The notes under the pieces were generated by a model. The model searched no databases and was not told the origin of the DNA. It was given only the letters and a program-made list of their open reading frames with translations. Shown piece after piece: positions 2,029-23,667 of a stretch of DNA of 23,667 nt (position 1 is the stretch's first letter; each line of letters begins with the position of its first letter). The DNA is taken from IMG/VR virus record IMGVR_UViG_3300026097_000107, positions 1-23,667 of that record. The stretch is one strand, 5' to 3'. Both the position numbers and the translations under genes were made by a program. Origin of the DNA: a virus.

Positions 2029-5000
2029 ATGGCTTTACCTATATCTGGTCCAATATCTTTTGCTGATATAAACGTCGAACTAAGTCGATTGCAAAATACA
2101 ACCATATCTTTAAATGAAACTCTAGTTAGAGAGCTTAGTGGAATTGTTGCGGGTACTATTTCCGTATCTGATTTTTATGGTGCAACTGCTGTTGATACTG
2201 CAATGAAACTTGTTTATGATACCACTCTAGGTAATGGGTCTAATACTGTAGGATTTAACTTAGGAGGCACGGTTGATATTATTGTCAACTGGGGTGATGG
2301 CACATTAGAGCAAATCACAACAAGTGGTTACATTACTCATACTTATGAAAACAGTGACACATATGAAGTTAAAATTGATGGTTCATTAACACAGTTTGGT
2401 GGTCTTGTTGATACACATGCAGCTAAGTTAACACAATGTACAACTTTTGGTGACATTGGTTTAACCAGCTTAAGAAACGCATTTTATAATTGTATTAATC
2501 TTATAGTTTCTCCAGACGAAATTCCTTCATCTGTAACTGATATTAGTTATATGTTTTGGGGAGCTGCGCTATTTAATGATAGTATTAGTGCGTGGGATAC
2601 TAGTAGTATTAACGCAATGGAAGGTGTGTTTTTTCAAGCCGCATCATTTAACCAACCAATTAATTCCTGGGATACATCAAGCGTTACAAACATGAGCTAC
2701 ATGTTTTATGGCGCAGTTGACTTTAATCAGCCTTTAGATGCGTGGGATGTTTCTAACGTTACAAATATGGCATTCATGTTCTTTAATGCCATATCATTTA
2801 ACCAAAGCTTGTCCGCTTGGGATGTTTCTAATGTCACTGACATGACAAGTATGTTTTCTTTTGCTGAGTCATTTAATCAACCTCTCAGTTCATGGTCCAC
2901 TAGTAATGTAACAGTAATGGATCAAATGTTTGAGTTTGCTCTTTTATTTGACCAAGATATTAGCAATTGGTGTGTTGAAAATATTACAGAAGAGCCTCCT
3001 GGATTTGCAACTGGATCCGTACTTGAACTTATTAATACCCCAATATGGGGAGCATGTCCAGGTCCGACTGATCAGTTTATGTCATTTACAATCAATACAA
3101 TATTAGATAGTGCAAATAATGACATAATTTTAAGATTGTTAGATTCTGTCGATTGTGTGGTGAGTTGGGGAGATGGTTTTAATGATACTGTTAAAGTGCC
3201 AACAAATGAATTAACACATACTTATAGTGTACCAGGAATATACACAATAAGAATAACTGGAACTGTTGCTCATTTTGCTGGATTTTCAACAACTGCATCA
3301 AAGGTTGTTAACTGTGTAAGTTTTGGTAGTTTGCAAACTACTAATTTATCTCAAGCATTCGATGGATGCACAAACTTAATATCAGTTCCAAATGATATAC
3401 CATTTACTGTAAGCCTTGTCCTTTTTATGTTTAGAAATGCTTCATCCTTTAATCAAAACATTAGTTTTTGGAATATGTCTAATGTCACACGCATGGATTA
3501 TATGTTTGATGGAGCATCATCATTCAATCAGCCAATTGGATCTTGGGACGTATCTAACGTTACTGGTATGCAAGCCATGTTTAATGGAGCATCATCATTC
3601 AATCAACCAATTGGATCTTGGGATGTATCAAATGTAAATGATATGTTTGTTATGTTTAGTGGAGCATCATCATTCAATCAGCCAATTGGATCTTGGGACG
3701 TATCAAATGTTACTAACATGGGTGCTATGTTTGGCAACGCATCTTCATTTAATCAAGATCTTACTGATTGGTGTGTTACAAATTTCACAAGTGAACCTGG
3801 TTTATTTGCTTCCAATTCAGCATTAAGTAATGCAAACAAACCAATATGGGGTACCTGCAATCCAACGTTTAATATTATATCAGCGGCAAATAATGTTACT
3901 GAAGGTGAAACATTAAACATTACAGTTAATACCACTGGTGTTGCAAATGGAACTACGTTTAATTGGTCAGTAAGTGGGCCAGAAGATTTTAGTACCTCTT
4001 CTGGATCATTTACTGTTAATAGCTCAACAGGAAGCTTTTCAGTGTCACCAACAATTGATACTACAGAGGATGACGGTGAAACTTTTACAATAACTATATC
4101 TTCTACAAGCGATCAAGCATTAGCAGTGTCAAATGCAATTACAATAAATAATGTTATTGGAGAAATTAGCGGTGCTTTAGATACTACCTTTAATATTGGT
4201 ACTGGATTTAACGATGATGTTATGAAAATTGCATTTGATTTAGATAACAAAATTTTAATTGGTGGTTATTTCACCAGTTACGATGGTACGACTCAAAACC
4301 GTATCACTAGACTGAATCTTGATGGATCAATAGATACAAGTTTTAATACAGGAAGCGGGTTTAATCAAAATGTTAAAACTATTTTAGTACAGCCTGATGG
4401 AAAAATTTTAGTAGGTGGAGTTTTTACTAGTTACAATGGAGTTACACAAAATCGTATCACTAGACTGAATCCCGATGGATCACGAGATACAAGTTTTAAT
4501 ATTGGAAGTGGATTTGGCAGTTTTGTTAGAGACATTATTTTACAACCTGATGGAAAAATTTTAGTTTGCGGAAATTTTGCAACATATAATGGGACAAATT
4601 TTGGGACTTCGGTTGTTAGATTAAATACAAATGGCACTAGAGATACAACTTTTGATGCGCCAGATTTTAGTAATTATCCAACTTCCTATGCTATTAATAC
4701 TATAGCGCTTCAATCAGATGGTAAAGTTTTAGTTGGCGGAGAATTTCATTCAGTAGGAACACGCGTTGAACTAGTTAGCGGCACTGCTGCAGAATATAGC
4801 GGTTTAGTTAGACTTAACAGCAATGGCTCATTAGATACATCATTCAATATTGGCAGTGGTTTTATAAGAGAAACTTCTAAAGTTTCAACCAACAGTGAAA
4901 TTTCCAAAATTGCTGTACAGTCTAATGGAAAAATTTTAGTAACTGGAGACTTTACAGTATTCAATAATTCAAGCCAAAATCGTCTTATTAGGCTTAACTC

Positions 5001-5310
5001 AAGTGGATCTAAAGATACAAGTTTCAATGTTGGAAGTGGCTTAAGTTTAGATGGTCGAGCATTTATTTTAGATGAAGAAAATAACAAAATTATAATAGGC
5101 GGATGGTTCAGTAGTTATAATGGTATTACTCAAAACAGGCTTATTAGGCTTAACTCAAGTGGATCTAAAGATACAAGTTTAAACATTGGAAGTGGATTTA
5201 ATAGTTTTGTTTTTGATATAGCTGAACAATATAACAATAAAATTATAGTTGTAGGTTGGTTCACTAGTTATAACGGAGTATCTCAAAATCGTATTTCTAG
5301 ATTAACTTGA
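2029..5310 (+). CDS. Mosaic adhesin / tail-fibre-like protein (PKD, BspA repeats, delta-60 propeller)
   Basis: This is a 1093-residue protein, probably virion-attached and involved in binding a surface. Residues 1-62 carry a short domain ([12 protein letters not shown] ... [11 protein letters not shown]) that recurs at the start of many marine phage fibre proteins and may be an attachment domain. Residues about 80-118 and 370-415 are PKD-like (WGDG ... HTY). Residues about 145-344 and 465-611 are BspA-type repeats (DUF285) of 25 residues, consensus [17 protein letters not shown]; each block ends in a WCV-N-T-EP ... PIWG-C cap. Residues about 614-705 look Ig- or Calx-beta-like. Residues 715-1093 hold seven delta-60 (DUF5122) repeats with KILVGG-F cores. 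There is no signal peptide, as expected for a phage protein. It lies between gp15 and gp16, where T4 has no such gene. Domain names come from recognised motifs; the role is inferred. Confidence 0.75.
3511..3735 (+). repeat. Three tandem 75-bp repeats within the adhesin gene
   Basis: Units begin with GGAGCATCATCATTCAATCA at 3511, 3586 and 3661, giving an exact 75-bp (25-codon) period. Units 1 and 3 are identical over their first 44 bases; unit 2 differs there at two synonymous positions. Each unit encodes one BspA-type repeat. The near identity in DNA, beyond what the protein needs, suggests recent duplication or gene conversion. Confidence 0.9.
4984..5180 (+). repeat. 41-bp direct repeats in the propeller-coding region
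   Basis: Positions 4984-5024 and 5140-5180 share 41 identical bases, 156 bp (52 codons) apart, encoding [13 protein letters not shown] in adjacent delta-60 repeats. A weaker pair lies near 4300 and 4450 (shared CGTATCACTAGACTGAATC). These show that the repeats have been duplicated or converted at the DNA level. Confidence 0.85.
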
Positions 5311-5329: not shown

Positions 5330-5578
5330 ATGAAATTAAAAGATATCTTACAAAAAAATGACGTAATTGCATTTGAAGTTATTGAAAACCAAAGAATATT
5401 AAGTGTTATTTTAAAAAATGATATTAGGCACGCGCTAAATGTTGACACTTCAAATATATTAGCTGGAACACAATTAACTGTTGTTGACGACTTTAGTATA
5501 AAAAATGATATATTAACCGTAAGTAATATATCATTAAATGTTAATGAAGTAGAAGTTATTACTAAAAGCTATGACTGA
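5330..5578 (+). CDS. Small protein of unknown function (82 aa)
   Basis: I do not recognise this protein. It has 82 residues, starts MKLKDILQKNDVIAFEVIEN, and looks soluble with alternating hydrophobic residues suggesting a small beta-rich fold. There is no signal peptide, membrane segment or cysteine. It follows the adhesin stop by 19 bp and overlaps the gp16 start by 8 bp, so it is cotranscribed with both. The clean overlap and the phage-like codon use support it as a real gene. It might be a partner or chaperone of the adhesin, since it sits between that gene and the conserved terminase genes. That idea comes only from position. Confidence 0.6.
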   Translation: MKLKDILQKNDVIAFEVIENQRILSVILKNDIRHALNVDTSNILAGTQLTVVDDFSIKNDILTVSNISLNVNEVEVITKSYD

Positions 5579-7593: not shown

Positions 7594-7605
7594 AATCCAT
7601 ATATT

Positions 7606-7613
7606 TATAAATA
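7606..7613 (+). promoter_or_regulatory. T4-type late promoter (TATAAATA) for gp18
   Basis: A perfect TATAAATA lies in the 86-bp gap before gp18. It shares the 16-base TTTATAAATATAATCA (7604-7619) exactly with the gp67 promoter at 11552-11567. In T4 this octamer is recognised by RNA polymerase carrying gp55, which this phage encodes at 18426. Transcription would start around 7620, leaving a leader of about 60 nt before the strong AAGGGG ribosome site. Confidence 0.85.
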
Positions 7614-7679
7614 TAATCATGACAAACATCGTATTATGAAAATCATATCAATAGTTTTCAAAAATCAAGGGGAAAACAC

Positions 7680-9410
7680 ATGAGCTTTCAAGTCTCTCCA
7701 GGTGTTGAAGTCCGCGAAATTGATTTAACCAATGTTGTTCCAGCCGTTTCAAGTTCAGTCGGTGGTATTGCAGGCGCTTTTGCTTGGGGTCCAGTTGAAG
7801 AAATTGTTACCGTAGGATCAGAAAATAATTTGGTTAGTGTTTTTGGCAGACCTAATGACGACACCTACAAGTATTTTATGCCCGCCGCGCAATTTTTGCA
7901 ATATACAAATTCGCTACGGGTTGTTCGTACAAATAATTCTGGACAGTTAAATGCAGCCGCTGGCGGAGTTGGCATTTTAGTTAAAAATGAAACCGACTAC
8001 GATAACCTTTCCGTAACTGGTGATACTGCTGGCGAAGGATTTGAGTTTATTGCTAAATATCCTGGTGAATTAGGTAACAGTGTTCAAGTTGTAGTTTGTA
8101 CTAATGCTGCTGCTTTTGCTGATTCTTCATTTGCACCTTATGCAGGTCAGTTTGACTTTGCACCAAATGTAAGTGAATTTGCCGCAGATCGTGGACTCGT
8201 TTTAAACAGCGATAGCGATAATGGCGATGAAATGCACATTGTTATTGTTGACCAAGATGGCGCGTGGACAGGAATAGCTGGTACAATTTTAGAAGTATTC
8301 CAAGGCGTATCACAAGCATCAGATGCACGTCGTGCTGATGGATCATCCAATTACTATGTTGATGTTGTTAATCGACAATCAAAGTATGTTTGGTTTGGCC
8401 GTCATGACGATGAGTTGACCAATGCTGGTGAAACAGTTGCTACCGCAGGTTCTTTAGGATATGTCACCTTAGATACAGCAACATCGTATTCTTTGGGTGG
8501 TGCATCGAACGGATCATCGGCTGTTGCAACAGTAGGAGAACTTAAGACTGCTTATGACCTTTTTGGTGACGCAGAAACTGTTGATATTAATTTGATGATT
8601 GGCGCTGATGTATCTGAAACAGATGCTACTGCTCATGCAAACGGTTTGATTGCAATTGCTGAATCTCGTAAAGACATTGTTGTATTTTTATCACCTCCAA
8701 CTTCAGAAACAGTTAATAATGTTACTGCAGCCACGGACGTAAAGGCATGGGCCGATACGGTTTCGTCAAGCTCATATGCAGTAATGGATTCTACAGCTTT
8801 GTATGTGTATGATAAGTACAATGACAAATATCGCTGGACAATTGCTGCTGGTTCTGTTGCAGGTCTCTGCGCATTTACAGATTCTGTTACTGATCCATGG
8901 TTTAGCCCAGCAGGATTTACCCGTGGACAGCTCCGCGGCGTAACAAAAATTGCTTTTAACCCAAAGAAAGCAGATCGTGATGATTTGTACAAAGCTCGAG
9001 TCAATCCAATTGTTGCATTCCCAGGTGAAGGTATTATACTTTACGGCGATAAAACTGCATTGGTTAAGCCATCTGCATTTGATCGCATTAATGTACGCCG
9101 TTTGTTTATTACTCTTGAAAAGGCAACTGCTACTGCAGCTAAGTTTCAGCTCTTTGAGTTTAACGACGAGTTTACTCGTGCTCAGTTCCGTAACTTAGTC
9201 GAGCCATTCCTTCGTGATGTTCAAGGTCGTCGCGGTATTACAGACTTTGCAGTTATTTGCGATGACAGTAACAATACGGCTGAGGTTATTGACTCAAACC
9301 GCTTTGTTGCAGACATCTATATCAAACCTGCAAGATCCATTAACTTTATCACATTGAATTTCATTGCCACTCGTACTGGTGTTGAGTTCTCTGAGATCGT
9401 TGGACAATAA
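7680..9410 (+). CDS. 18: Tail sheath protein gp18
   Basis: This is the contractile sheath subunit that polymerises around the gp19 tube and contracts to drive it through the host envelope. The N-terminus SFQVSPGVEVREIDLTNVVP and the GAFAWGP motif are typical. The C-terminal part with NVRRLFITLEKAT, then FEFNDEFTRAQFRNLVEPFL and the DVQGRRGI segment, is the most conserved region of T4-like sheath proteins. Length is 576 residues against about 659 in T4, the loss falling in the variable surface domains in the middle. A strong ribosome site (AAGGGG) lies about 8 bp before the ATG, and a late promoter lies upstream. gp19 follows after 13 bp, so sheath and tube are cotranscribed. Confidence 0.95.
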   Translation: MSFQVSPGVEVREIDLTNVVPAVSSSVGGIAGAFAWGPVEEIVTVGSENNLVSVFGRPNDDTYKYFMPAAQFLQYTNSLRVVRTNNSGQLNAAAGGVGILVKNETDYDNLSVTGDTAGEGFEFIAKYPGELGNSVQVVVCTNAAAFADSSFAPYAGQFDFAPNVSEFAADRGLVLNSDSDNGDEMHIVIVDQDGAWTGIAGTILEVFQGVSQASDARRADGSSNYYVDVVNRQSKYVWFGRHDDELTNAGETVATAGSLGYVTLDTATSYSLGGASNGSSAVATVGELKTAYDLFGDAETVDINLMIGADVSETDATAHANGLIAIAESRKDIVVFLSPPTSETVNNVTAATDVKAWADTVSSSSYAVMDSTALYVYDKYNDKYRWTIAAGSVAGLCAFTDSVTDPWFSPAGFTRGQLRGVTKIAFNPKKADRDDLYKARVNPIVAFPGEGIILYGDKTALVKPSAFDRINVRRLFITLEKATATAAKFQLFEFNDEFTRAQFRNLVEPFLRDVQGRRGITDFAVICDDSNNTAEVIDSNRFVADIYIKPARSINFITLNFIATRTGVEFSEIVGQ

Positions 9411-15335: not shown

Positions 15336-15362
15336 GAAAGGGACTTCGGTCCCTTTCTTTTT
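15336..15362 (+). terminator. Strong intrinsic terminator after gp23 (UUCG tetraloop)
   Basis: A 9-bp perfect stem (15336-15344 with 15349-15357) is closed by C-G around a TTCG loop, and is followed by five T residues (15358-15362). The C(UUCG)G loop is exceptionally stable. It lies 33 bp after the gp23 stop and just before the next late promoter, so it ends the head-gene transcript and probably protects the abundant gp23 mRNA. Confidence 0.93.
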
Positions 15363-18425: not shown

Positions 18426-18998
18426 ATGATTGATGCAAAAAAGAAACCACATTACGTTAACAACAAAGAATTTTCACTTGCTGTTGTTGAATACGTTAAA
18501 AAAGTAAATGAAGCAAAGGAAAACGGAACTCCAATTCCTATTGTACCTGACTATGTCGCTCAATGCTTTTTGAAAATTGCAGAAGGCCTATCTCACAAAT
18601 CAAACTTTATTCGATATACCTATCGTGAAGAAATGGTTATGGATGGTGTGGAAAACTGTCTCAAAGCTATTTTGAATTATAATATTGATGCTGCAACGAG
18701 AACGGGTAACCCCAACGCATTTTCTTATTTTACTCAAATTTGTTATTTTGCTTTTTTGCGCCGTCTTGCAAAAGAAAAAAAGCAACAAGATATTAAATTT
18801 AAATTTATAGAAACCGCATCAATTGAAAACTTTATTCAGTTTGATGGTTTGGATGACTTTAACCAAAACATTGCTCAACCATTTGTTGAACAGCTTAAAG
18901 ATAGAATTGATAAGGTTAAAACAACAGATACTCAAATTAAAGAATTTGCAGCAGAGCAAAAAAAGAAAGGTATTGAATTTTTTATGGGTAGTGACTAA
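18426..18998 (+). CDS. 55: Late-promoter sigma factor gp55
   Basis: gp55 is a reduced sigma factor that directs host RNA polymerase to TATAAATA late promoters. The 190-residue protein (T4 about 185) has the conserved core YTYREEMVMDGVENCLKAI (sigma region 2-like, core-binding), then NPNAFSYFTQICYFAFLRRL, where the late -10 is recognised. The extreme C-terminus ends GIEFFMGSD; in T4 gp55 the C-terminus contacts the sliding clamp, and this short hydrophobic patch may do so here (inference). It has its own near-consensus early promoter. Neither gp33 nor gp45 lies in the window. The gp47 ATG follows the stop by 1 bp. Confidence 0.94.
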   Translation: MIDAKKKPHYVNNKEFSLAVVEYVKKVNEAKENGTPIPIVPDYVAQCFLKIAEGLSHKSNFIRYTYREEMVMDGVENCLKAILNYNIDAATRTGNPNAFSYFTQICYFAFLRRLAKEKKQQDIKFKFIETASIENFIQFDGLDDFNQNIAQPFVEQLKDRIDKVKTTDTQIKEFAAEQKKKGIEFFMGSD

Positions 18999-18999
18999 T

Positions 19000-20064
19000 A
19001 TGAAAATTGCTGTAATTTCTGATACGCACTGTGGCATACGCAATTCGTCTGACATTTTTATTGAATACCAAGAGCGGTTTTATAATGAAGTATTTTTTCC
19101 ATATCTGTTAAAAAACGATATCAAAACAATACTTCATTTGGGTGATTACTACGATCATCGTAAATATATTAACTTTAAGGCATTGAACTCTAATCGTAAG
19201 GCATTTCTGAATCGTTTAGTCGATGAAGGAATGCATATGGATATTATTCCTGGCAATCACGATGTGTATTTTAAATCTACAAATGAACTTTGCTCTCTCA
19301 AAGAGCTCATGGGTTATTATACTAATAATGTCAACATTGTAATGAAACCACGAGTCATGGACTACGACGGTCTTCGCATGGCATTGATTCCATGGATTAA
19401 CAATGAAAATTATCATGATACAATGAAGTTTATTTCTAAATGTGATGCTGACTGGGTCGGCGCGCATCTTGAACTAAGTGGTTTTGAACACATGAAAGGC
19501 ATTATTTCAACAGGTGGTATGGAAGCAGATGTGTTTAGCAGGTTTGAAACAGTTCTTACAGGACACTTTCATACTAAATCAACAAAAGGCAATGTACACT
19601 ACCTAGGTTCTCAAATGGAATTTACATGGGCTGATGCTCATGATACAAAACATTTCCACGTGATTGATACTAAGACTCGTGAATTAACTGCAGTAGCAAA
19701 CCCTCTTACATTATTTGAAAAAATCCTTTACGACGACACAAAAATGGATTATAATATAGAATACGATGTGTCAAAGCTAAAGGACAAATTTGTTAAGTTA
19801 GTTGTTGTCAATAAATCAGATCCTTACCTATTTGATTCGTTTGTTGACAAAATTCAAAATACTGAAGTTCATGAACTCAAAATTGCTGAAACCTTTAATG
19901 AGTTTATGGGTGAAAACATTGATGATGAAAATATTTCTGTTGAAGATACAACTCAACTTCTTGACTCGTATGTAGATGCAGTTGACACTGAACTTGATAA
20001 AGAGCGCATGAAAGGCTTTATGCGTTCAATATATGTTGAAGCTTGTAATGAGGAAATTGTATAA
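19000..20064 (+). CDS. 47: Recombination endonuclease subunit gp47 (Mre11-like)
   Basis: gp47 is the nuclease subunit of the gp46/gp47 complex, which resects DNA ends to start recombination. Counted from ATG 19000 (354 aa; T4 about 339), the metallophosphatase motifs are complete: D8-x-H10, GDYYDH with G48, D49 and D52, GNHD 85-88, and GHFH with H189 and H191. The open frame extends upstream to 18823, but that part lies inside gp55 and lacks homology, and MKIAVISDTHCG is the natural start of this family. The start is 1 bp after the gp55 stop. Its stop shares one base with the gp46 ATG, coupling the two subunits. Confidence 0.95.
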   Translation: MKIAVISDTHCGIRNSSDIFIEYQERFYNEVFFPYLLKNDIKTILHLGDYYDHRKYINFKALNSNRKAFLNRLVDEGMHMDIIPGNHDVYFKSTNELCSLKELMGYYTNNVNIVMKPRVMDYDGLRMALIPWINNENYHDTMKFISKCDADWVGAHLELSGFEHMKGIISTGGMEADVFSRFETVLTGHFHTKSTKGNVHYLGSQMEFTWADAHDTKHFHVIDTKTRELTAVANPLTLFEKILYDDTKMDYNIEYDVSKLKDKFVKLVVVNKSDPYLFDSFVDKIQNTEVHELKIAETFNEFMGENIDDENISVEDTTQLLDSYVDAVDTELDKERMKGFMRSIYVEACNEEIV

Positions 20065-21791
20065 TGCTCCACTTTAAATCTGTTAGATGGCGCAATTTTT
20101 TATCGACTGGAAATGAATTTACTGAAGTTTTACTTGACCGCTCTCCGACTACATTGATTGTTGGATCAAACGGCGCAGGTAAGTCTACTTTGCTTGATGC
20201 GCTGTCATTTGGTTTATTTGGTAAAGCTCACCGTGACATAAACAAAATGCAATTGGTTAACTCAATCAATGGGAAAGGTACAATTGTTGAGGTTGAGTTC
20301 AAGGCAGGAGCACACGAGTTTAAGATAGTGCGTGGTATCAAACCAACAAAGTTTGAAATATACCAAAACGGTAACATGATTAATCAATCAGCTGCCGCTA
20401 AGGACTATCAAAAGTTCCTTGAGCAAAACGTACTAAAGCTCAATCATAAGTCTTTTCATCAAATCGTAGTGCTTGGTTCATCATCCTTTATTCCTTTTAT
20501 GCAACTTCCAGCTCATGCTAGAAGGGCAGTGATTGAGGATCTTTTGGATATTCAAATCTTTAGTAAAATGAATACTATTATTAAAGAAAAAATGTCAAAG
20601 CTTAAGGAAGAAATTACGGCTGCAACTCATGCTATTGAATTAGTAAAAGAAAAAATCACCATGCAAGTCAAATACATCAAAGATATAACAGAAATCAATG
20701 ATGCACACCTCCGCGATAAAAAAGAAAAGATTGTTGAAATACAAAAAGAAATTACATCAATTCAAAAAAACAATTCAGATCTTACTGTATCAATTGACAG
20801 TAATCAAAAAGGACTTCAAGAAAATATTGACAAGACTCGAAAAGAGCATCAGTCAGTACTCAAATATGAAGCACAATTTAAACATCAAATAACAGGTGTA
20901 GTAAAAGATGCAAAGTTTTATGAAGAACATCAGAATTGTCCGACTTGTACTCAAGTCATTTCTAATGCGATTAGAAAAGCAAAACTTGAAGAAGCTCAGG
21001 AAAAGGCTCGTGAACTGCAAAACGGAATGGAGTTAGCTGCAAATAAATCAAATACTCTTGATGCTCAACTTAAACTCCTTAATGACACAAACGAAAAGGT
21101 GCAAGAATGGAACAATGAAATTTACGCAAACAATAAAGCAATTGCTCGCTTACAAGATCAAATTGTACAAATTGAAGGTGAAATTGCAAACCTATCTAGT
21201 AAGTCAGGTGACTTGTCAAAAGCAAATGAAGAACATCGCAATTTGATTGATGAGCGTGATAGTTTAAATGAGCGTAAGTTAAAACTACTCGAAGATCGTA
21301 CATATTCTGAAGCTGCATATGAAATGCTCAAGGACACTGGCATTAAAACTAAAATTATCAAAGAATACCTGCCAGTCATGAACACGTTGATTAACAAGTA
21401 TCTCAATGTTTTAGACTTTTTTGTATCATTTCATCTTGATGAAAACTTCAATGAAACAATCAAGTCTCGCCACCGCGATGATTTTAATTATACGTCGTTT
21501 TCAGAAGGCGAAAAACAAAGGGTTGATTTAGCACTATTGTTTGCATGGCGACAAATTGCTCGTATGAAAAACTCTGCATCAACAAACTTGCTTATTCTTG
21601 ATGAAACTTTTGATAGCTCACTCGATCAAGACGGTGTTGACAATCTTATGAAAATCCTACACACTCTTCGTGATGATGCAAACGTATTCGTAATAAGTCA
21701 TAAAGGGGATATACTTGACGGAAAGTTTAGATCAAAAATCGAATTTACTAAGGATCGCAACTTTTCAAAGATGGTCAAGGCACAAAATTAA
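20064..21791 (+). CDS. 46: Recombination endonuclease subunit gp46 (Rad50-like)
   Basis: gp46 is the SMC/Rad50-type ATPase partner of gp47. In 575 residues (T4 about 560): Walker A GSNGAGKST (34-42), a long antiparallel coiled coil interrupted by the zinc hook C292-P-T-C295, ABC signature FSEGEKQ (S480, G482), and Walker B LLILDE with D513 and E514 followed by the D-loop SSLD. All ATPase and hook residues are present. It is translationally coupled to gp47 by a one-base overlap. In many T4-like phages the clamp gene 45 follows; here a palindromic region and a VWA gene follow instead. Confidence 0.95.
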   Translation: MLHFKSVRWRNFLSTGNEFTEVLLDRSPTTLIVGSNGAGKSTLLDALSFGLFGKAHRDINKMQLVNSINGKGTIVEVEFKAGAHEFKIVRGIKPTKFEIYQNGNMINQSAAAKDYQKFLEQNVLKLNHKSFHQIVVLGSSSFIPFMQLPAHARRAVIEDLLDIQIFSKMNTIIKEKMSKLKEEITAATHAIELVKEKITMQVKYIKDITEINDAHLRDKKEKIVEIQKEITSIQKNNSDLTVSIDSNQKGLQENIDKTRKEHQSVLKYEAQFKHQITGVVKDAKFYEEHQNCPTCTQVISNAIRKAKLEEAQEKARELQNGMELAANKSNTLDAQLKLLNDTNEKVQEWNNEIYANNKAIARLQDQIVQIEGEIANLSSKSGDLSKANEEHRNLIDERDSLNERKLKLLEDRTYSEAAYEMLKDTGIKTKIIKEYLPVMNTLINKYLNVLDFFVSFHLDENFNETIKSRHRDDFNYTSFSEGEKQRVDLALLFAWRQIARMKNSASTNLLILDETFDSSLDQDGVDNLMKILHTLRDDANVFVISHKGDILDGKFRSKIEFTKDRNFSKMVKAQN

Positions 21792-21811
21792 CTGTTGCAA
21801 ATTTGCAACAG
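21792..21811 (+). repeat. 20-bp perfect palindrome after gp46 (site 1)
   Basis: A perfect inverted repeat with no spacer begins on the base after the gp46 stop codon. Its 16-bp core is GTTGCAAATTTGCAAC. No T-run follows, so it is not a standard terminator. The same core recurs 30 bp downstream. Confidence 0.9.
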
Positions 21812-21818
21812 ATAAATA
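21811..21818 (+). promoter_or_regulatory. Late-promoter-like GATAAATA between the palindromes
   Basis: GATAAATA, one mismatch from the late octamer, fills the gap between the two palindromes. A start near 21825 would fall inside the second palindrome. It could give the VWA gene late expression in addition to the sigma70 promoter downstream, but it may be chance in AT-rich DNA. Confidence 0.4.
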
Positions 21819-21844
21819 TAATTGTTGCAAATTTGCAACAATTA
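21819..21844 (+). repeat. 26-bp perfect palindrome (site 2)
   Basis: A perfect, spacer-free inverted repeat with the same core GTTGCAAATTTGCAAC (21824-21839). Its centre is exactly 30 bp from that of site 1. It ends 12 bp before the -35 element of the VWA-gene promoter, so its centre is near -60 relative to the expected start. Likely a binding site for a dimeric regulator. Confidence 0.9.
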
Positions 21845-21856
21845 GGAAAAAAATCC

Positions 21857-21885
21857 TTTACAAGACTCTAGATCCAGTATATAAT
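21857..21885 (+). promoter_or_regulatory. Sigma70-type early promoter for the VWA gene
   Basis: TTTACA (21857-21862) and TATAAT (21880-21885) with a 17-bp spacer, the same arrangement as the gp55 promoter. Both are followed by a TATATAA three bases after the -10. The start is expected near 21892; the gene's ATG is at 21911, after a GGAGG ribosome site (21899-21903). Confidence 0.87.
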
Positions 21886-21910: not shown

Positions 21911-23667
21911 ATGGAATCCAACTCAAAATCTATCCTTGCTAAGCTGCTAGCTCGTGAAAACATTACAATTCAGCATGGGAACATTCCTACAGCATATTTT
22001 GATGTTGAAAATCGAGTACTTGGTCTTCCTTTGTTCAAGGAAATGGACAAGAATGTATATGACTTGCTTATTGGCCATGAAGTAGGTCATGCACTTGAAA
22101 CGCCTTCAGACGGATGGCACAATTCGAGCTTTGATATTCCTGGATGTCCACGTGCATTCATCAACGTTGTTGAAGATATTCGCATTGAAAAGCTGATTCA
22201 AAACCGATATCCAGGATTGATTAATTCATTCAAAAAAGGCTATCATAATTTAATGGTTCAGGACTTTTTTGGCATTGGCGATACAGACGTCAATACAATG
22301 AGCTTTATGAATCGTCTTAATCTTAAGTCAAAACTACGAGATTTAATAAGCGTTGACTTTTCTAATGAAGAACAACCATATGTTGACATGGCTATGTCTG
22401 TGCAAACATGGGATGATGTTATTTCTACATGCCGCGCAATATATGAATACTTAAAGGAAAAGCAAAAAAATGAGCAAAAGGAAACTCAGAGCTCACCAAA
22501 CGGAGGATCAGGAGAATCATCTTCTGAAGACAGCGCTGATGAAAGCAGCGATCAGTCAACATCAAAAGAAACCCCTTCAGAACAAACTACTGAGCCTAAC
22601 AGTAAGGATGATACCGATTCGTCTTATTCATTGGATAGTTTCGAAAATAATAACAATACGTTTGAAAATAATACTTTTCAAAACGAACAGACTGATCAAA
22701 AAACTGAAGAAACAACAAAAACGTTAGGGTCTGACTGCGATGATGATATTAATCAAGATATCATGGATACGTCAACAGATGACAACTTTAGAACTAATGA
22801 AAATAACTTAGTTGAGCGTAATCGTGACGGTAGTATTCCTGACGCAATTAATCTTTGCAACAGCAAACAGCTTCAAGATATGATTATTCCTTATCACGAA
22901 ATTGCAAGGTCGCGTGCCGAAAACAATCAAACTGTTTTTTCTCAAGATACTGTGCCAGATACATTTCGGCATACTAATTATAAGTCAGAATTAAAAACCT
23001 TTGTTGATGAGACCACTAAAATTGTTAACGTTATGGTTAAAGAATTTGAAATGCGTAAAGCTGCCTTTCAATACTCTAGGTCTAAAACATCTCGTGCAGG
23101 TTCTTTGAATGTAAACAAGTTACATGAGTACAAATTCAATGATGATATTTTTAATAAAGTAACAAAGTTAGCTGATGCAAAAAGCCACGGTATGGTTATG
23201 TTTATTGATCGTTCAGGATCAATGCGAAACATCCTAGGAAATGTCATACGTCAAACGCTAACATTAGCAATGTTTTGCAAAAAAGTAGGTATTCCTTTTG
23301 ATGTGTATACGTTTACTTCCTATGATAGACACAGATCAAATACACAAGAAGGTTATAAGTACAAAGTTGGCGATTTAGATCATAGCTACACGGCAGTTTG
23401 TCATCTTTTGAGCTCATCGTTTAAAAAGTCAGACTATACTGAAGCCTTTAACAACTTGTTTTATCAAACCGTTGGGTATGACTTGACGCATTACCTGTGG
23501 TATTCTGAATATGAACGCATGGGTGGTACACCACTTGTTGAAGTTTTATCCGCGGTTCCTGAGTTAATTGCAAAGTTTAAAAACAAGCACGGCGTACAAA
23601 AAGTTATTATGCCGCTGTTAACTGATGGTGCAGCTTCAAGCTTCAGTTATGTTTTTGGTTTTAACGG
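21911..23667 (+). CDS. HExxH metalloprotease-like, VWA-domain (CobT-like) protein, partial at the right edge
   Basis: The frame is open from ATG 21911 to the window end (585 codons) and incomplete. Residues 45-92 hold GHEVGHALETP with H56, E57 and H60, and E88 in NVVEDIRIEK as a likely third zinc ligand. Residues about 185-300 form a Ser/Asp/Glu/Asn-rich acidic linker. From about 425 a von Willebrand A domain shows a full MIDAS set: MFIDRSGSM (D433, S435, S437), GGTP (T540) and LLTDG (D572). This plan matches the CobT/VWA proteins of T4-like marine phages, sometimes labelled peptidase or cobaltochelatase subunit. Relatives usually work with a MoxR/CobS-type AAA+ ATPase, not seen in this window. 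Substrate and role are unknown. Strong GGAGG ribosome site and its own promoter. The ATG is the first in-frame start after the promoter. Confidence 0.88.
   Translation, partial: MESNSKSILAKLLARENITIQHGNIPTAYFDVENRVLGLPLFKEMDKNVYDLLIGHEVGHALETPSDGWHNSSFDIPGCPRAFINVVEDIRIEKLIQNRYPGLINSFKKGYHNLMVQDFFGIGDTDVNTMSFMNRLNLKSKLRDLISVDFSNEEQPYVDMAMSVQTWDDVISTCRAIYEYLKEKQKNEQKETQSSPNGGSGESSSEDSADESSDQSTSKETPSEQTTEPNSKDDTDSSYSLDSFENNNNTFENNTFQNEQTDQKTEETTKTLGSDCDDDINQDIMDTSTDDNFRTNENNLVERNRDGSIPDAINLCNSKQLQDMIIPYHEIARSRAENNQTVFSQDTVPDTFRHTNYKSELKTFVDETTKIVNVMVKEFEMRKAAFQYSRSKTSRAGSLNVNKLHEYKFNDDIFNKVTKLADAKSHGMVMFIDRSGSMRNILGNVIRQTLTLAMFCKKVGIPFDVYTFTSYDRHRSNTQEGYKYKVGDLDHSYTAVCHLLSSSFKKSDYTEAFNNLFYQTVGYDLTHYLWYSEYERMGGTPLVEVLSAVPELIAKFKNKHGVQKVIMPLLTDGAASSFSYVFGFN

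Follow-up and report, generated by a model that had tools for sequence, protein, structure and literature searches.

The stretch of DNA analysed here (the window) comprises the 23,667 nucleotides of IMG/VR record IMGVR_UViG_3300026097_000107 and represents a fragment of a T4-like phage, with genes for terminase, sheath, tube, portal, gp23, UvsY, UvsW, gp55, gp47, gp46 and a VWA peptidase. The features that concern the interval between gp46 and the VWA gene are the following:

18426..18998, + strand: gp55-like late sigma factor (PHROG phrog_234, E=9.6e-52)
20064..21791, + strand: gp46, SbcC-like recombination nuclease subunit (PHROG phrog_77, E=1e-171), ending with its stop codon immediately before the distal palindrome
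21792-21811, no strand: predicted distal operator, 20-bp perfect palindrome CTGTTGCAAATTTGCAACAG, arm 10, centre at about -90.5
21793-21810: 18-mer of the distal operator, TGTTGCAAATTTGCAACA
21811-21818, + strand: GATAAATA, putative late promoter element of T4 type (NATAAATA), transcript predicted to begin at about 21824, within the proximal operator or at its border
21819-21844, no strand: predicted proximal operator, 26-bp perfect palindrome TAATTGTTGCAAATTTGCAACAATTA, arm 13, centre at about -60.5
21823-21840: 18-mer of the proximal operator
21857-21862, + strand: predicted -35 hexamer TTTACA, matching the consensus, together with the -10 hexamer, at 11 of 12 positions
21880-21885, + strand: predicted -10 hexamer TATAAT, predicted start at about 21892
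21911..23665, + strand: VWA/peptidase-like gene, open at the window end (PHROG phrog_459, E=2.5e-163)

The first-pass annotation had described two spacer-free palindromes of 20 and 26 bp with a shared core and centres 30 bp apart, and this proved exact: the 16-bp core copies occupy 21794-21809 and 21824-21839, centred at 21801.5 and 21831.5, and no other spacer-free palindrome with arms of at least 9 bp occurs in the window. By a simple estimate (4^-10 and 4^-13 per position, without base-composition correction), about 0.02 palindromes of 20 bp and 0.0004 of 26 bp would be expected by chance in 23.7 kb. Searching for the core, as had been proposed, gave no further match in the window with up to three mismatches (0.39 expected by chance) but many sites upstream of promoters in related phages. 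The predicted VWA promoter consists of TTTACA, a 17-bp spacer and TATAAT, with the -35 hexamer beginning 17 bp past the second core, so that the nearer centre falls near -60.5, in agreement with the annotated value of around -60. A second promoter-like pair, TTGCAA at 21795 and TATAAT at 21817-21822 separated by 16 bp (10 of 12 positions), overlaps the distal palindrome and GATAAATA; it may represent a weak promoter that the distal site would cover.

Elsewhere in the window, a 1093-aa protein (2029-5310) containing repeats of DUF285 and of the DUF5122 beta-propeller type lies between the neck/tail-sheath-stabiliser and terminase genes, an unusual place for a surface- or fibre-like protein. A hairpin with a TTCG loop, GAAAGGGACTTCGGTCCCTTTC (15336-15357), located 3' of the major capsid gene, is probably a terminator, and a 12-bp inverted repeat, AATGATATATTAACCGTAAGTAATATATCATT (5504-5535), lies where a small ORF ends.

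At the gp46-VWA locus of relatives, the contig L003 (gp46 95% identical) keeps both sites, each drifted, as GTTGTAAATCTGCAAC (distal) and GTTGCAAATTTACAAC, and two more distant ones (L017 and L038, gp46 about 65% identical) keep the proximal site only, as GTTGTATTTTTACAAC. Despite these sequence changes, in which the half-sites drift independently, the distance from site to -35 is the same 17 bp in the window and in all three. Among the 46 related contigs scanned, a VWA-locus site is present only in these lineages, and it is missing from many further relatives that share the gp46-VWA order. The core is therefore not absent from all relatives with this gene order, the outcome which the first-pass annotation had named as telling against its operators.

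Across related contigs, further sites were found, each immediately upstream of a strong predicted promoter, and the shared element is better written as the 18-bp motif TGTTGY-N6-RCAACA: at 119 promoter-linked sites the core is preceded by T in 99 and followed by A in 110, and no A/T pair is needed at its inner positions. The 18 phage contigs analysed, either related or recruited, contain 215 unique strong sigma70-type promoters, of which 79 have the 18-mer upstream (match of at least 11 of 12 positions), a count that overstates independence since related phages contribute several sites each. The match scores taken from promoters are bimodal, either near-perfect or at background. Part of these contigs had been recruited by the site-plus-promoter pattern, which fixes the layout; the sites outside recruitment were therefore tested separately, and over whole contigs nearly all of them likewise precede a strong promoter, other distances included. 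The gap of 6 is required; gaps 3 and 9 gave some matches too, though fewer, which we take to be register echoes produced by TGTTGT-like repeats.

That such matches arise by chance, or as an alignment artefact of AT-rich intergenic DNA, is suggested by the small size of the motif and by nothing else, and we regard it as practically negligible. With the half-sites permuted into 60 distinct orderings, three close variants gave comparable counts and the rest 0-2 (median 0), which refutes this explanation; the reversed pattern gave 0 in 49 contigs, the window itself holds no other match to the core, and none of the 154 strong promoters of seven site-less phages (C48C1 39, HTVC008M 18, Melnitz 32, G042 30, G004 25, G045 6, G011 4) has the 18-mer. 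The strict 18-mer is also absent from ten cultured phages, and searches of cultured phages for a site-bearing promoter returned nothing convincing. The literature search turned up no description of the element, a previously uncatalogued site of many uncultured T4-related phages.

Downstream of the sites lie, for the most part, short ORFs of early type, together with the VWA gene and a gene for an AAA-ATPase. Small ORFs also occur in runs, each with its own operator and promoter, for instance four within about 1 kb in contig G059 (33174-34213; L354/L353) and six operator-promoter-ORF units within about 2.6 kb in G068 (L349). Some exact-core matches (L087 and L148 among them) differ in layout, and those overlapping coding sequence (L182, L227, L314) look fortuitous. 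In L087, a 71-kb phage contig, GGTGTTGCAAATTTGCAACACC occurs four times (3722, 4348, 5023 and 9457) as apparent intergenic hairpins.

Could the palindromes act instead as RNA hairpins after gp46, that is, as terminators or as processing or stability elements? Both arms indeed fold strongly by prediction (-10.9 and -12.2 kcal/mol singly, -26 jointly, z -8.7), pairing of flanks 2-5 is slightly above expectation, and copies in L251, L285, L320 and L283 resemble intrinsic terminators with T-runs. Such T-runs accompany 12 of the 119 sites, and terminator-like copies were excluded from the operators. In the window, however, no T-run follows either palindrome on the + strand (21792-21844), as the first-pass annotation had observed in judging terminators unlikely; weak terminator-like tails exist on the - strand, a direction in which no gene is transcribed here. 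The sub-threshold Rfam matches across the pair, mostly to eukaryotic microRNA hairpins, were set aside as an inverted-repeat effect. At core positions 5/12 the combinations T/A, T/G, C/A and C/G were observed 47, 27, 26 and 19 times, against 45, 29, 28 and 17 expected from the margins under independence. Since C...A is as common as T...G and all four combinations match independence, pairing is not what has been selected; the half-sites vary freely, and the selected entity would be a dimer-bound operator. The C.A mismatch of the proximal copy in L003 (+ strand), the conservation of sequence beyond pairing and the phased promoter distance point the same way, and the hairpin explanation is consequently very improbable.

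The distances from site to -35 cluster at 4-9, 14-19, 24-25, 36-39 and 46 or more bp, with a best period of 10.0 bp that was equalled in none of 2000 uniform draws; the commonest position is near -52. The dyad thus sits upstream of the -35 hexamer at helix-phased distances, in the manner of class I-type sites. Because the sites lie upstream and are phased, we consider it probable that the palindromes are two operator copies for a dimeric protein which activates the adjacent sigma70-type promoter in class I fashion. In this scenario, a dimer would bind TGTTGY-N6-RCAACA at about -61, -52, -70 or -90, always on the same side of the helix, and touch RNA polymerase. By analogy with class I activators, a dimer centred near -60.5 would be well placed to reach the alpha C-terminal domain. 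Several distal positions were seen, among them the -90.5 of the distal site here, which may add occupancy. The operator's target in this phage would be the VWA gene; in relatives it would act on the next gene, for an AAA-ATPase, and on numerous small genes of early type. It might be objected that most of these promoters are near consensus and may do without an activator.

Cooperative binding of a dimeric regulator to the two sites had been suggested at the outset. The kept 17-bp spacing and dozens of further promoters with the site support operators that belong to the downstream promoter and bind a dimeric regulator, but not cooperation between two sites 30 bp apart: most site-bearing promoters have one site, L017 and L038 retain the proximal one only, and other pairs (G083, G071) are 25 bp apart.

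The same arrangement might serve a repressor or timing operator, through which a phage protein shuts early promoters later in infection, and both the frequent small early-type ORFs downstream and the weaker promoter-like pair under the distal palindrome would accord with it. Yet the sites stand upstream of the -35, mostly 4-26 bp off, leaving the hexamers uncovered, and they are helix-phased, all of which fits activation better; repression is therefore improbable in our view.

As to the origin of the regulator, we scanned for the layout of core, 16-18 bp, TTKACA, 16-18 bp and TATAAT, and found it in 49 viral stretches. In bacteria and archaea (257 Gb, 84,980 species genomes) the identical layout, with spacers of 16-18 only, gave two matches, both copies of one Phd/RelE-like toxin-antitoxin plus resolvase element; the scanned layout is thus nearly confined to phages. 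In the two Clostridia MAGs concerned (L297, L298), the Phd/RelE-like pair and resolvase are accompanied by two sites 42 bp apart upstream of a promoter. CRP/FNR-type sites have a similar layout, TTGNN-N4-NNCAA, and a host factor of this type might have been recruited by the phages to the same operator, as is thought for NtcA in cyanophages, where 1-16 sites per phage are found (PMC3037559). Near-consensus early-type promoters would require their factor from time zero, which a host protein could satisfy, and neither a CRP-type HTH gene (0 of 18 contigs) nor any one regulator gene common to all was found in the phages. A host regulon, on the other hand, should have appeared in the bacterial scan, where the layout with 16-18 bp spacers was almost absent, so that recruitment of a host factor seems rather unlikely. 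In the absence of any bacterial regulon with the scanned layout, we infer that the regulator is more likely encoded by phages than by their hosts.

The helix-turn-helix search proposed earlier identified no regulator and yielded one lead. A CRP-type HTH (PF13545) was found in 0 of 18 records and Ogr_Delta (PF04606) in 0 of 34, no noteworthy small protein with the zinc-finger pattern CX2C...CX4C appeared among 2072 ORFs, and gene-content comparison gave no regulator gene common to all site-bearing contigs; all these records are fragments, for which the absence of a gene proves little. The only recurrent DNA-binding family was the HTH_39 winged helix, present in 9 of 26 records tested, all nine site-bearing; it is also present in the site-less Melnitz and HTVC008M, and is accordingly a lead only. 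An acidic AbrB/MazE-like 57-aa protein headed the gene-content comparison (11 site-bearing versus 0 site-less) but is disfavoured, being strongly negatively charged and occurring also in cyanophages that lack the site. This family tracks the operator across contigs, and in L361 (G084 40448-40690) and L345 (G074 7788-8030) a small gene of the family ends exactly at the operator before the VWA gene.

Among known systems, Ogr/Delta of P2/P4/186 comes close, being a phage late-gene activator with an operator upstream of host-polymerase promoters and the half-site TGTTGT/ACAACA, as in TGTTGT-X13-ACAACA of the Ralstonia P2-like phages phiRSA1/phiRSY1 (PMC5694545) and TGT-N12-ACA of P2 (PMC3931495). 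The gap, however, is 6 here (79 promoters) instead of 12-13, gap 13 occurring at 1 of 215 promoters and gap 12 at 0; the phiRSY1 promoters lack sigma70 hexamers, which are strong here; and no contig among the 34 has an Ogr_Delta gene. The element thus falls outside this family, though a similar working principle is possible. NtcA in cyanophages is alike in that many T4-like phages have copies of a palindromic regulator site at promoters (PMC3037559), but its site is GTA-N8-TAC, the protein is host-encoded, and the cyanophages examined are without the present site. Phage-encoded DNA-binding activators working with the sigma70 polymerase are also represented by Mor of Mu, a dimer on inverted repeats (PMC4390567), and by MotA of T4, and in both comparisons the present promoters differ by an intact -35 with the site upstream of it. 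Mor binds at -43.5, and the MotA box, which is non-palindromic, replaces the -35. CRP/FNR class I sites resemble the present ones in dyad length, in their short centre and in their positions at about -61 and -70, on the same side of the helix; in contrast, the half-site here is TGTTGY rather than TGTGA or TTGAT, the consensus forms TTGAT-N4-ATCAA and TGTGA-N6-TCACA do not fit, the commonest sites are near -52, and neither a CRP-type HTH gene nor a bacterial regulon accompanies them.

The motif noted between the palindromes, GATAAATA, matches the T4-type late promoter, NATAAATA being the late promoter consensus of T4-like cyanophages (PMC2984593). It stands shortly upstream of a gene, and the gp55-like factor encoded in the window likely reads it. 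The ATAAATA core is also found upstream of the structural ORFs at 7607, 9964, 11555, 15367 and 15923; with 14 late motifs in the whole window against 10.3 expected, the total is not above chance, and support therefore rests on the positions upstream of ORFs. The element is kept in L003 and absent in L017 and L038. Additionally, the tail sheath gene is preceded by a perfect palindrome, TATATTTATAAATATA (7600-7615), that contains the late motif in both orientations. With a gp55-dependent late promoter lying between the two operators, the VWA gene would stay expressed late in infection, an arrangement that agrees, by analogy, with the overlapping early and late control suggested for cyanomyoviruses without MotA; the cyanophage-like T4 relatives have neither MotA nor AsiA (PMC2984593). 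The first-pass annotation was thus correct in outline and is partly supported, having missed the wider, more degenerate motif, its helix phasing, its role as a phage-wide promoter element and the late-promoter match of GATAAATA.

More tentatively, and with our confidence falling somewhat short of even, the operator may serve a phage-encoded and possibly virion-carried dimeric activator shared by uncultured T4-related phages and replacing the MotA/AsiA middle mode; carriage in the virion may apply if the target genes are truly early. Early and middle timing in T4-like phages beyond the T4 and KVP40 groups is poorly known, and the operator makes the question testable, with a countable regulon of up to about 10 promoters per contig that names the promoters, predicts spacing rules and provides a bait for the regulator. 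If the proposal is true, the element would be an undescribed transcription switch in a broad uncultured group of T4-related phages.
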